DNA of 64,000 nt, taken from positions 64,118-128,117 of the forward strand of contig NW_001799244.1 in NCBI RefSeq assembly GCF_000165425.1, given 5' to 3'. Source of the stretch: Paramecium tetraurelia. Lineage: Eukaryota; Ciliophora; Oligohymenophorea; Peniculida; Parameciidae. The stretch's first letter is position 1, and every line of letters starts with the position of its first letter. Shown in pieces: positions 6,076-12,300 of the stretch. Made by a program: the position numbers and the translations under genes. The notes beneath the pieces were generated by a model. That model saw only the letters and a list, made by a program, of their open reading frames with translations. It was not told the DNA's origin and made no database searches.

Positions 6076-6163
6076 TACTTCATAATATAATTATAAATTT
6101 ATATAATAAGATTAATTCATCGATTATATCCAATTTAATGACATAAATAAATCATAAAATAAT

Positions 6164-7826
6164 ATGCAAAAATTTAGGAATATTGCAGCATTTTCTACAA
6201 TTCCCTCTTATTTTACCCTCGATCCAAATTAAATGTAAGATAGTCTTTTAATTAACATCACAATAGATCTGCTCGCAATCCTCACAAGGCTCAAAACTTT
6301 TTGCGTGGAAAATGGATTGATTCCCATAAATATCAAACAATAATAGATCCATTGAATGGCGAACCATTTATTACTGTGCCCGATGTCTAGGATAAATAAG
6401 AGTTGTAGAAATTTATTGATTCAGCCAAAGAATGCCCAATTAGTGGATTACATAATCCATTAAAAAATCCATAAAGATATTAACTTTATGGGGAAGTATG
6501 TCATAAAATAGCTGCAGAACTTAAAAAAAAAGAGGTTCATGATTTCTTAGTGAGATTAATCCAAAGAGTTGTACCTAAGCATTTTGCATAAGCATCAGGG
6601 GAAGTTGTTGTAACAGAGAGATTCTTCTAAAATTTTAGTGGTGATCAACCTCGTTTCTTAACTAGATCATTCAATGTCGCTGGGGATCGACCTGGATAGC
6701 AATCATCAGGATATAGATGGCCTTTTGGATCTTGTGCTGTTGTGGCTCCATTCAATTTTCCATTAGAAATACCAAGTTTATAGATATTTGGAGCTTTGAT
6801 CACAGGAAACAAAGTTTTCTTCAAAGGAGACAGCCGAGTCAATGTTGTTATGGAATAAATGTTGAGATTAGCCCTTCATTGTGGATTACCAGCTACAGAT
6901 GTAGATATGTTATTTGGAAATGGTGAAGCGACTGAATTTATTTTAAAACAGGGAAATTTCAGAAACACTTAATTTACAGGATCATCAAAGGTCGCAGAAC
7001 ATTTAACAAAAGTATTGAATGGAAAGATAAGAATTGAAGATGCTGGATTTGATTGGAAAATACTTGGTCCAGATGTACCAGATGTGGATACTCAAAATTA
7101 TGTTGCATGGCAATCTGATTAGGATGCATATGGAAGCACTGGATAGAAATGTTCAGCTTAAAGCATACTCTTTGTTCATGAAAATTGGGTTAAGGCAGGA
7201 TTTCTTGATAAAATTAAACAACTTGCTAGTACCAGAAAATTATAAGATTTGAGCAATGGTCCCATAATAACATGGAACAATACATAAATTAAATAGCATA
7301 TTGACAACATTTTGAAGATTCCTTAATCTAAAGTATTGTTTGGTGGGTAGGAATTGAAAAATCACACTATTCCATCAATTTACGGAGCATTTGAACCCAC
7401 AGCCTTGTACGTTCCATTAGATTAAATTTAAAAGAATAAGGCAGTGACTACAGAATTGTTTGGACCATTTTAGATTGTCACTACTTATTCTTCTGATTAA
7501 ATCAATTAGGTTTTGGATGTGATCAATAATCTTGAAAACCATTTGACTGCAGGCATAGTTAGTAATGATGTGAATTTCTTAAGACATGTTTAATCCAATA
7601 CAACTAATGGAGTGACTTATAGGTAATGTGAGATTCAATTATTTTAGTGGTATAAGGGCAAGAACCAACTGGTGCTCCCCAAAATCATTGGTTTGGACCA
7701 TGTGGAGATCCAAGAGGAGCAGGTATCGGCACTCCTGAAGCAATATTATCTGTGTGGACATGTCATAGGGAAATTATACATGACATAGATCTGGCTCCTT
7801 AAGGATTCAAAGGATAACAAAGTTGA
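6164..7826 (+). CDS. Delta-1-pyrroline-5-carboxylate dehydrogenase, ALDH12-type (one frame break)
   Basis: Oxidises glutamate semialdehyde/P5C to glutamate with NAD+, the second step of proline breakdown, normally in mitochondria. Two introns (32 and 25 nt) are removed; expected product ~534 residues. Landmarks: WPFGSCAVVAPFNFPLE (cofactor site), FTGSSKVAE, and GQKCSA with the catalytic Cys. The C-terminal block (TGAPQNHWFGP, GDPRGAGIGTPEAI) matches plant-type ALDH12 rather than ALDH4. Between YSGIRART and TGAPQNH the frame changes by one base near 7667, inside a conserved run, so the gene as read is interrupted. The N-terminus (MQKFRNIAAFSTIPSYF) is compatible with a mitochondrial presequence. 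The stop lies 37 bp from the stop of the convergent gene. Confidence 0.88.
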
Positions 7827-7863: not shown

Positions 7864-9141
7864 TCATTATCTAATCCAATCCAATAATTTGATAGCATCT
7901 TGCCATCTGAGATCTACTGATCTACAATTTAACAGTACAATAATGTACGAGTTCTCGTTATCCTCAAAATACTCTACAACACAAGGCCCTGCCTCTTTTG
8001 TTATGCCTGTCTTAACACCCCTAAATCCTTGGTATAACATCCTATTAGTGTTTTCCCAAAAGATTTCCTTTGACTCTCCAAATTTGTCTTCAATTTCACT
8101 AAAGTAGATTTTGGTCTTGACAATACTGGCGAACTGTAGATTTTACATGGCATGATAGGTGAGGATGCCAATATCATAAGCAGACGAGTAGTTGGCTTCA
8201 TGATACAAACCTTTTTGTTAGATTAATAATACCATGAGGATTAGCATAGGATGTCAACTCCATTCCAATGTCTTATGCGTTTTGATTCATTTGTTATATA
8301 AAGTCGCAACCTTTATAAAGTTCGAAATTATGTTGTAGGGAGATTGCTGCATCGTTGCCAGATGGTAACATCAACCCATAGAGCAGATCTCTAATGCTGA
8401 GTTTATCACCACTTGAGAGTTGTGCTGTTGTGCCTCCAATCCTTTCTGCCTATATTTAAGCTATGAACTACTTTTTCTGGCACTGTGAAATAGGTGTTAT
8501 CAAGGTCCAATTGAAATTGCTGGGTGAGTTTCAGTGCTAGCCAACATGTCATGATTTTGGTGATTGAAGCCATTTGTCTGCTTTTATATTGATTATAGCC
8601 CCCCATCAATTGGCCATTCTTTCCATTAATAACACACCAGCTCTGAGCAGACACTAATGGAGCCACACTCTCCAAAGGTGTAATGGAGATTTATTATGGT
8701 AATATTCGTTTAGCTCTGGAAACTGCAGTCTTGGGTTTGATGGGGGATTATTGATATTTTTCCGAACTCTTTTTCGAATAGAAGGAGTTGTTGGCTGTGG
8801 AATTTAGGAGTTTGACTTTGGTATTTTTGGGGTTGCTGTACATGTGAAACCTTTTGGAGTCCATGATGGTGGTTTTCTGCTTTTTTTGTTCAGGTTCTTT
8901 ATCTTGCTGATGTGGTTGAATGACTGAGACTTTTCGGACTTAAAACTTATCTGCGGGTTCAATAGATACATTGAATACTTTACTTATACTCTCTGAAGAT
9001 TCTCTGGGCCAACATTAAGGTGTTGCTGAGATTTTCGGTTTGTGGTTGGAGGAATGCTTGGTGGCGATAATTGCTGGCACTTGTAGGTTGGTATTTGAGA
9101 CAGAGGGCTTGTTGTCTATTTTCAAAGTATTCTTGATTCAT
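7864..9141 (-). CDS. Serine D-Ala-D-Ala carboxypeptidase-like protein (peptidase S11)
   Basis: Peptidase S11 enzymes (PBP5/DacA family) trim D-Ala from peptidoglycan peptides by a Ser acyl-enzyme. Spliced product is 401 residues (introns 28, 22 and 22 nt). All three active-site motifs are present and in order: SxxK as ASITKIMT (~residue 182), SGN as LPSGNDAA (~260), and KTG as GVKTGITKEAG (~350), with family context such as TSYANPHGL and YDIGILT. About 150 residues of polar sequence precede the domain and there is no signal peptide, unlike the secreted bacterial enzymes. Ciliates have no peptidoglycan, so the likely source is bacterial transfer. It carries typical ciliate introns and code, so it is resident in the nuclear genome. 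Substrate could be prey or symbiont wall fragments, or something else; this is inference. Confidence 0.88.
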
Positions 9142-9310
9142 GTAAATATTAATAATGAAATTGGGTATATAATTAAATTATTTAGATGTTATTTTTTTTA
9201 TACAGGAAAATCTAATAATGCTTTGGATGTAATGTATTTAGGTCCAAATATTTATTGATTGAAGTTACTATGATAAATAAATATTTATAAATTATAATAA
9301 ATAATAACTG

Positions 9311-12300
9311 ATGGGCAATGAGATTTCTAATGGAAGTCCAGGAGATCTGGAATAGATGAAAAGATTTATGAACATGTCGCCAGGTTAGGTCAAATTGATA
9401 AAGTAATCGTGTTATACAAATTGTGTTTTAGAGAGAAATTCGAATTGATGGCGGATGAGGATCTCACGATTGATAGGAATGGGTTTATATAGTTGATGAA
9501 ATTGAAGGAGACTGAAGTAGATAAAGTGTTTTAATTTTTTGACATCAGCAATGATGGTCGAATTGACAGTCATGAATTTGTATGTGCTTTGAGTCTTTTG
9601 AGTTAAGCCACCCTGAAGGTATTTCTAGAATTATTATATCGAAGGAAAAAGCAAATATCATATTTTCCTTATATGACTTTGATCACAACAAAACAATCAC
9701 TCGAAATGAATTGGTCATTCTGATCAAGACTACTTTGACAGCCTTGGGAGCCATGTCACAGAAGGGAGAATGCACCATCCAAGAGGCAGAGAGAATCTCA
9801 GACGAATTGCTAAGGAAATATGATACAAACAAGGACGCCTCAATATCTTTGTCTGAATTTCATAGGTATGTTTATATTTTAATAATTATTTCGCAGTCTT
9901 TTATCAAAAGATTAAGATGTGCTCAAGATGCTCCTATCCTATGGCTTATGCTCACTGGAAGATTTGAGATCTGACTTCGGAGGAGCCTAATAGGGTGATG
10001 TTCCGTATCCAGACTCTGATTTGGAGAGTGAAACACAGCGAAGACAATTGGCATACGATCAGAAAAGAGAATTGAGGAAAATTGGAATAGAAGCCAATCT
10101 TGATGATGGCAATACTCAATTACAATAAGATAATAATCAAAAAGCTCTCAAAATGACCAACAAAGAAGTTTGGAAAAACCAAGTTAAGAATGGTTATCCA
10201 TCTTCTTGGAAACCAGGAAAAGGGGATATCAATCCACCAAGTACATTTATGGAATTAGATTACATATATGGATTTAGAAGTTTTGACACAAGAAACAATA
10301 TTAAGTTTGTTGATTAAGAATTAGTCTATTTTACTGCTGCAGTTGGAGTGGTGTATAATCCATAGACAAATTAATAAAGGTTCTTCTTTGAACACACAGA
10401 TGATATTACATGCATAGATGTTTACGATAAGTATGTTGCAACTGGTTAGGCAAGGGGATAGGTTCCTCCTATTTATATTTGGGAAGTTAAAGATTAAATG
10501 TAACCATCTAGAGCTGCTTTTAAAGGTATTTTGCGTTAAGGAGTGCAATGCTTAGCATTTTCAAATGATGGTAAGAAATTGGCCGCTGTGAGTATGGATG
10601 ATGATCACACTTTGGTTGTTTATGATGTGGATAAGGGAATAGATGCAAGATTGAAAGGTGATGTATCATAGGCCTTATTAGCCACAGGTAAAGGTCCTAG
10701 GTCATTTGTATTTGATATTAAATTTGATAAAGTTGACAAGTATTTGATTGTGGCATGTAAGAATGAAGTCTACTTTTGCAGTTACGATTAAAATCAAATC
10801 AGATTGAATCTAGGAATTTGGGATACGAAAACATCACCATTCTCATCAGTATTATGCATAGCATTATGCGATAACAATGTGATAACAGGTACGTACAGAG
10901 GATAATTATTAATCTGGAAGAGCAATAGAGCTACTACAGCAGTGGATGCTCATAAGAGTGCAGTGCTAGCTATTCATACGAAGAGAAGTTAGGAAGGTGG
11001 GGTTGTATCAGGGAGTAAAGATGGAACAATCATAGTTTGGGATGTGAACATGAAAGCTAAAGAGAAGATAAATGTTCTGAACTTAAATTTAAAAATATTC
11101 AATTTCAAAGTATAAAGTGTTACAATAGGACCAAATGATTAAGATAAATCTGTCCACTTAGTGTTTGGAACAAGAGGTTCTGACATGGTAGAGGTGCAAG
11201 GACCAAAAAATAAGATTTTAATGAGAGGACATTCAGTCGGAGTCTTAAGGGGATTGGCCATGCATCCAAAATTCCCTACTTTTTACACAATTGGAGAAGA
11301 TAATATTTTGGCTTGTTGGCTGATCAAGGATAAGAAGATGTCAAGTTGCATGAGACTAGAATATCCTAGCAGTGCTATTCATATTAGCAAAGATTACAAA
11401 TATCTGGCTGTTGGTAGTACTAATGGAACTGTACTTATTATTGATCCTAAAACATTGATGCCTACTTTTAACTTTAAAGATAGGGATGCTGAAGTCTCAT
11501 GTCTCAAATTCTCTCCTGATACTGAATAATTAGCAGTTGGTCATGATGCACCAAGTTGTGATGTCATCATATATTCAATTAAGAATCATTTCAAAAAGAC
11601 TAATGTTTTAAGAGGATCTCCTGCAAGAGTAATTAGTATTGATTTCTCATCCACATGCAGAGTTTTATAAATTAATGATTGGAGTCAATAAGTTCTCTAT
11701 TATGAATTGGGTGGAGAAAATAATCAAAAAGTACAACCAGATGGAGCTTAGAAGTATAAGGATGAGAAGTGGGCAACATACACAGCTATATATGGATGGC
11801 ATGTTTTGGGAGTATGGCCACCTTTATCAGCTGGAAGTGATATCAACGCTGTGGATAGATCTAATAAAGGAGATATTATAGTTTCAGCTGACGACTATTC
11901 TGGAATCAAGATATTCAGATATCCTGCTGCATAACCAGGTTAAGGATTTTAGAGATATGTGGGACATGCAGCACATGTGACCAATATCAGATTCTCAGCT
12001 GATGACGAGTACATCATATCATTGGGTGGAGCAGATAAGTCCATCATGTAATGGAAAGTCTCGCATGATAAGGATGCTCAGATTGAGTAAGATCAGGCAT
12101 GTGAATCAATTTAAGATGTTTAGATATCCAAGGATTATTATAGACTCAATTTAAATGAGGAGGAGAATAAGTAGGAAGGGTAGAAGTAGTATTAAGCCTT
12201 TGTTAAAAGCCACTTAACCAACCAATTTTAAATTTGAATGAGAAGAAATATAATGTGTTGCCTTAGGGTAACATAACACTTGACTATGTTTTGGGGTATG

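Follow-up and report, generated by a model that had tools for sequence, protein, structure and literature searches.

The window, a stretch of 64,000 nucleotides from Paramecium tetraurelia, carries between positions 9141 and 7864 a gene with a peptidase S11 domain, which is read in the ciliate code 6 with TAA and TAG as glutamine codons. The gene and its parts are as follows:

9141..7864, minus strand: whole S11 gene, ATG at 9141-9139, TGA at 7866-7864, 401 amino acids, spliced model without internal stop
8664..9141, minus strand: N-terminal polar extension, residues 1-150, contains intron 1
8978-8951, minus strand: intron 1, 28 nt, GTA...CAG, an intron of the same length is present in the twin copy L020
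7924..8663, minus strand: Peptidase_S11 domain (PF00768), residues 151-382 by Pfam, same span in the profile search of the genome
8556..8567, minus strand: SxxK motif SITK with the nucleophile Ser183 and Lys186
8471-8450, minus strand: intron 2, 22 nt, GTA...TAG, directly 3' of the VPEK codons
8354..8362, minus strand: SxN motif SGN, Ser244-Asn246
8232-8211, minus strand: intron 3, 22 nt, GTA...AAG, between NPHG and L, splicing yields NPHGLYHEANYSSAYD
8005..8013, minus strand: KTG motif, Lys353-Gly355

Introns 2 and 3 both have counterparts in the paralogs L020, L022, and L024. A candidate fourth intron of the first gene model (7948-7922, 27 nt) was dropped because this stretch encodes the strand SYIIVLLNCRS, which is conserved as coding sequence in the paralogs. 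On one side of the S11 gene lies a plus-strand gene of the aldehyde dehydrogenase family (6142-7620), the two facing each other with their 3' ends. On the other side is a divergent neighbour (9311-12237, with its ATG near 9311) which encodes an EF-hand stretch and, after it, an EML-type double beta-propeller with a HELP motif.

The first-pass annotation had described a bacterial-type D-Ala-D-Ala carboxypeptidase gene at this place, and its coordinates, the minus strand, the genetic code, and the family assignment could be confirmed: the Pfam family PF00768 matches residues 151-382 with E=3.2e-44 and 151.6 bits (curated cut-off 27.6). The top solved relative by sequence is DacB (3mfd, E=2.7e-36), presumably the B. 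subtilis protein. The motifs Ser183-x-x-Lys186, Ser244-Gly-Asn246, and Lys353-Thr-Gly355 are present together with Arg388, and they are indeed intact, in the correct order and suitably spaced, with distances of 61 and 109 residues in comparison to 66 and 103 in the aligned E. coli DacA. An affinity to beta-lactamase-like proteins in place of family S11, raised earlier as the point that could overturn the assignment, was not found. The score against Beta-lactamase2 (PF13354) is 27.4 bits, above the cut-off of 22 and far below the S11 score; Beta-lactamase (PF00144) gives 13.5 bits, below its cut-off of 27, and the NCBIfam model bla_class_A gives 16.6 against 200. With the S11 score being far higher and the last two cut-offs missed, kinship to the beta-lactamases or to LACTB was rejected. 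The protein also sits inside the tree of S11 hits described below; the bacterial rows of this tree are all S11-like hits, and the profile scores are the better test. The protein ends soon after the S11 domain and has no PBP5-type C-terminal domain II or membrane anchor. As judged from its sequence, it is an S11 enzyme with intact active-site motifs.

The gene had also been regarded as a nuclear ciliate gene and not as a contamination, and this view is well founded. Contamination and an assembly artefact are refuted by the ciliate code, the three introns, the position on a 507-kb contig, the presence of S11 genes at 20 loci on 20 contigs, and a syntenic twin; as we found nothing in their favour, we consider them extremely improbable.

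The S11 paralogs of Paramecium, their tails and their missing leader

At least 20 S11 loci, that of the window included, exist in the genome and form one clade, a fact that the first-pass annotation had overlooked. A search of the 69-Mb genome with PF00768 yielded 43 matches, which are exon pieces, at no fewer than 20 loci on 20 contigs, this number being a lower bound. Absence of the gene from an independent assembly, which would have told against it, is thus not borne out, with many paralogs and one of these in a syntenic duplicate. Eighteen of the 20 loci could be modelled, whereas L012 and L027 were left out for doubtful or broken frames. Compared with its close paralog L026, L027 (C11) has a broken frame; the frame of L012 (C149) is doubtful, although an assumed intron of 34 nt yields, in one model, an open frame with the motifs preserved. 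Both cases could be due to assembly errors, unusual introns, or recent pseudogenes. We checked 12 residues (SxxK, SxN-D, Trp, Asn, KTG, Thr357, and Arg388), and all are kept in 17 of the 18 modelled paralogs. The remaining copy, C207 (L021, about 1550-2605), has an open frame with Cys in place of the nucleophile Ser, Gly in place of the SxN Ser and no KTG; it is probably dead as an enzyme and a candidate pseudo-enzyme.

The twin L020 on contig 114 has the same neighbours as the window gene, namely an aldehyde dehydrogenase gene and the EF-hand/EML-type WD40 stretch. In their best-matching piece, which spans 333 residues, the aldehyde dehydrogenases beside the twins show 98% identity, and the compared part of the EF-hand/EML-type neighbour lies in the same order beside L020, as expected of a whole-genome-duplication pair. 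Selection was estimated as dN/dS by a Nei-Gojobori count with code 6 in 11 pairs, which share genes and hence are not independent. In the domain the ratio is 0.032-0.137 in ten pairs (one of the 11 is saturated) and 0.032-0.067 when only the six pairs of dS below 2 are counted. In the tail it is 0.033-0.392 in the eight scorable pairs (three are saturated), seven of which show weaker constraint on the tail than on the domain. For the window gene and L020 the values are 0.056 for the domain and 0.11 for the tail. Thus, the window gene and its twin are under strong purifying selection.

The tail of the window protein is rich in Q, K, S, and N and has no hydrophobic leader. The polar extension of about 150 residues in place of an export signal, as noted in the first-pass annotation, is therefore real: the top 15-residue mean hydropathy within the first 45 residues is -0.09, and the upstream region 9142-9340 contains no minus-strand ATG in any frame, so that an upstream signal-peptide exon starting there was rejected. 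None of the 18 modelled paralogs has a hydrophobic leader, the top 15-residue mean in their first 45 residues being 1.39, a value which belongs to the dead copy C207, and trying each Met ahead of the domain as the start gives nothing above 1.39. When the same measure is applied to bacterial relatives, 62 of 68 scorable loci attain a value of 1.6 in the 45 residues after one or another possible start (of 80 loci, 12 start at the locus edge and were left unscored), although the several candidate starts allowed per bacterial row favour high hydropathy. An earlier control over the whole pre-domain region, in which 70 of 80 bacterial loci reach 1.6, was replaced because this region is longer in the bacteria and contains folded domains. 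All these values stem from a hydropathy scan, complemented by the ATG check for the window gene, and not from a trained predictor. The tails differ between the subfamilies of the paralogs; in the subfamily of the window gene, three of four copies share conserved tail blocks, for example D[ST]K.FH and R.LP..I...P.

Bacterial relatives and origin of the family

Bacterial relatives were collected by scanning 84,980 bacterial and archaeal species with the seeds LMLPSGND and W[EK]NTN[KR][LM]L. Among the 80 loci listed out of 532 confirmed ones, 60 have planctomycete titles; the first 51 include 50 of these, with identities of 32-40%. In order to avoid the seed effect of the pattern scan, a profile of 10 of the 18 Paramecium proteins (A1) was run on even phylum samples around centre genomes that are themselves hits. 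Six phyla, named in the following, were sampled in this way. In the Planctomycetota 13 of 119 genomes have matches, the best with 247 bits; five matches of at least 212 bits come from four genomes including the centre genome, and the next one has 102. The single match in the Verrucomicrobiota (1 of 145 genomes, limit 1e-50) has 206 bits and is the centre genome itself. The best matches are 177 bits in the Actinomycetota (101 of 119 genomes), 188 bits in the phylum of Sphingopyxis (238 of 249 genomes, the best in the centre genome and the next at 154), 184 bits in the phylum of the Clostridia row (143 of 149 genomes), and 169 bits in the Chloroflexota (11 of 121 genomes, limit 1e-45).

A tree had been proposed in the first-pass annotation as a check, and it places the Paramecium proteins beside a mainly planctomycete and verrucomicrobial group. 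The first tree comprised 17 family members, without the dead copy C207, and 89 further rows. Those from Paramecium are monophyletic (100/98) and join at 97/92 a 34-row clade of mainly Planctomycetota and Verrucomicrobiota; the minority in the latter comprises one row from Sumerlaeota, one from a bacterium without a label, and two that bear the label Pseudomonadota. The planctomycete rows with lower scores, L118-L125, branch far away in this tree. A second tree of 55 rows, 11 of them from Paramecium, with Chloroflexota and E. coli DacA included, recovers the pair of Paramecium and the PVC group at 98/94. Forcing the Paramecium rows together with the ten rows of the clostridial set is rejected (p-AU 2e-10), in a test that was chosen after the first tree. 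The amino-acid composition deviates in several rows of the trees, those of Paramecium among them, and Paramecium is the only eukaryote; for these two reasons we name the donor only as the nearest sampled group. Taken together, the sequences suggest one bacterial acquisition followed by expansion. At the deepest splits within the Paramecium clade the branches are long (1.1 to C36/C101), and therefore the family is older than the recent duplication; we expect it to be present in other ciliates too.

About 400 residues precede the S11 domain in many of the 80 listed bacterial loci (median 405.5), and in 70 of the 80, across all phyla, 60 residues or fewer follow it. Three bacterial relatives were scanned with Pfam: L067 carries PG_binding_1 and L042 neither PG_binding_1 nor Beta-lactamase2, whereas the planctomycete protein L029 consists of Beta-lactamase2, PG_binding_1, and a C-terminal S11 domain and thus combines two penicillin-type serine domains in one chain. 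In the three Paramecium proteins scanned with Pfam (the window protein, C12, and C207) PG_binding_1 and Beta-lactamase2 are absent outside the S11 region.

Relatives also occur in viruses. Two of 38 pattern matches in viral contigs (L109 and L110) encode relatives with 29-30% identity, and S11 matches were found in 79 phage records, the phage collection hits H1-H5 among them, with 38% at best. A viral origin was rejected, as L109, the sole viral row of the tree, lies on a very long branch outside the clade of Paramecium and the PVC group.

Proposed function

In S11 enzymes an acyl-enzyme is formed at the active-site serine, and the C-terminal carboxylate of the substrate is held by the KTG motif and an Arg. 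In the window protein, Ser183, activated by Lys186 and the pair Ser244/Asn246, would attack the carbonyl of the bond preceding the C-terminal residue, Lys353-Thr-Gly355 and Arg388 would hold the substrate carboxylate, and the acyl-enzyme would be released by water, as in a carboxypeptidase, or by an amine, as in a transpeptidase. We suggest that the gene came by a single transfer from a bacterium, with a mainly planctomycete and verrucomicrobial group as its closest sampled kin, to a forebear of the ciliate, that the export signal was then lost in the ciliate line, and that the gene may have spread by duplication, one whole-genome duplication included, with its catalytic machinery kept under selection. 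As no modelled member has a leader, work in the cytosol appears most likely, where the enzyme would act on a small peptide or a protein tail; the constrained polar tail, different in each subfamily, would set the place or the partner. The missing leader, the strong selection on the domain and the constrained, subfamily-specific tails together favour intracellular processing of peptides or tails. Thus, with a probability of roughly 0.55, we regard the window protein as an intact cytosolic S11 serine acyl-enzyme which was retained for work inside the cell and is positioned by its tail; from these features we infer its activity, its cytosolic location, the role of the tail, and a main substrate other than intact peptidoglycan.

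The bacterial pattern of the domain (WENTN, KTGxT, and the terminal Arg) is closely kept, and for this reason a D-Ala-containing substrate of bacterial origin is quite possible. Ciliates of the Paramecium kind feed on bacteria and can host symbionts, and the enzyme might trim D-Ala from wall fragments of such bacteria in the cytosol, either for recycling of D-Ala or for silencing of the muropeptides. The catalytic pattern is of the DD-peptidase type, and a precedent exists in the aphid enzyme ApLdcA, an acquired peptidoglycan carboxypeptidase in a eukaryote (PMC8689515) which would be similar in purpose. Against this stands that an exon-by-exon profile search of the genome, in which short exons can be missed, gave no match to Amidase_2 (PF01510), the one possible partner family that was covered, and that some 20 loci with different tails seem more than a clean-up step would need, so that we hold such muropeptide handling, the strongest alternative, to be rather doubtful. 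The original substrate of family S11 is found in bacterial walls, and bacterial walls are contents of food vacuoles; an enzyme that reaches the vacuole lumen without a classical signal peptide and acts there on intact peptidoglycan is nevertheless unlikely given the lack of a leader throughout the modelled paralogs, the absence of an upstream ATG for the window gene, and the finding of a PG_binding module in none of three Paramecium proteins scanned as compared to two of three proteins of the planctomycete group. The role in handling peptidoglycan of food bacteria or endosymbionts which the first-pass annotation had considered is therefore possible but not favoured, in view of the missing leader and the missing Amidase_2 match.

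Other genes of wall chemistry were searched for in the same exon-by-exon manner. The transpeptidase family of high-molecular-mass penicillin-binding proteins (PF00905) has no match in the genome. The C-terminal family of D-Ala-D-Ala ligases (PF07478) has two weak, distant matches with 38.9 and 33.1 bits (cut-off 24), which we tentatively take for another ATP-grasp enzyme and not for a sign of murein-like chemistry.

The dead copy C207, whose frame has stayed open despite the loss of KTG and of both serines (nucleophile and SxN), could point to a binder, sensor, or structural protein with the catalytic residues as mere passengers. The 17 other modelled paralogs keep all checked residues despite the long branches between subfamilies, and since such retention is not expected without catalysis, we think that this explanation is very improbable.

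We tentatively put forward that a whole family of penicillin-binding proteins in the cytosol of a eukaryote may have been turned to host proteins, cutting or exchanging C-terminal residues of host peptides or protein tails, with each subfamily aimed by its own tail at one structure. As glycine can take the place of D-Ala in achiral form, a target might, for instance, be the glycine chains that ciliary tubulin carries, although no result points there specifically. The enzyme that removes these chains was called unknown in a 2017 review, as far as its excerpts tell (PMC5666887).

Comparison with known systems

Low-molecular-mass penicillin-binding proteins are wall enzymes of the bacterial periplasm. 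In common with DacB (3mfd), the DD-transpeptidase 1skf/1es2-1es5, which we take to be that of Streptomyces K15, and E. coli DacA/PBP5, the window protein belongs to S11 by profile and sequence and shares the order and spacing of SxxK, SxN, and KTG as well as the terminal Arg. It differs from them in lacking a signal peptide and the PBP5-type C-terminal domain, in carrying a polar tail, and in residing in a genome without a PF00905 transpeptidase match. The C-terminal domain is likewise missing in the Streptomyces K15 enzyme and in the majority of the closest bacterial relatives. The S11 proteins of planctomycetes and Verrucomicrobiota, among them those of Bythopirellula (L029) and Singulisphaera (L067), have the closest sampled domains (247 and 206 bits compared to 188 or less in four other phyla). 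In most of them the N-terminus is hydrophobic, whereas that of the Paramecium proteins is not; outside its S11 region, the window protein also has neither the PG_binding_1 module of L029 and L067 nor the Beta-lactamase2 domain of L029.

Our full-text literature search, which mostly covered work outside subscription journals, yielded, among the titles and abstract openings listed, no description of S11 or D-Ala-D-Ala carboxypeptidases of ciliates. In the retrieved portions of PMC3146951, PMC2875401, PMC12239567, and PMC12176269 the matching terms have unrelated uses, and in those of a study on the eukaryotic acquisition of D-amino-acid enzymes (PMC5169069) Paramecium is mentioned once and carboxypeptidases never. 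Thus, the S11 family is known, and its ciliate, leaderless, and expanded form seems to be undescribed in the literature searched.

Two eukaryotic systems invite comparison, the aphid enzyme ApLdcA, which presumably belongs to a family other than S11, and the animal protein LACTB, to our knowledge the nearest precedent for a eukaryotic enzyme with the fold of penicillin-binding proteins and, as we assume, of the beta-lactamase (PF00144) type. Unlike the window protein, ApLdcA is an L,D-carboxypeptidase and tied to an obligate symbiont (PMC8689515). LACTB resembles the window protein in being a bacterial active-site-serine relative of penicillin-binding proteins kept by a eukaryote (PMC2266909, in part), but it is mitochondrial, and the window protein misses the cut-off of its family PF00144 (13.5 vs 27 bits). 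A large, mostly intact and selected family of leaderless S11 proteins would stand beside LACTB as a case of a domesticated penicillin-binding fold at the scale of a family, and penicillins would provide a ready chemical handle on its role in Paramecium.
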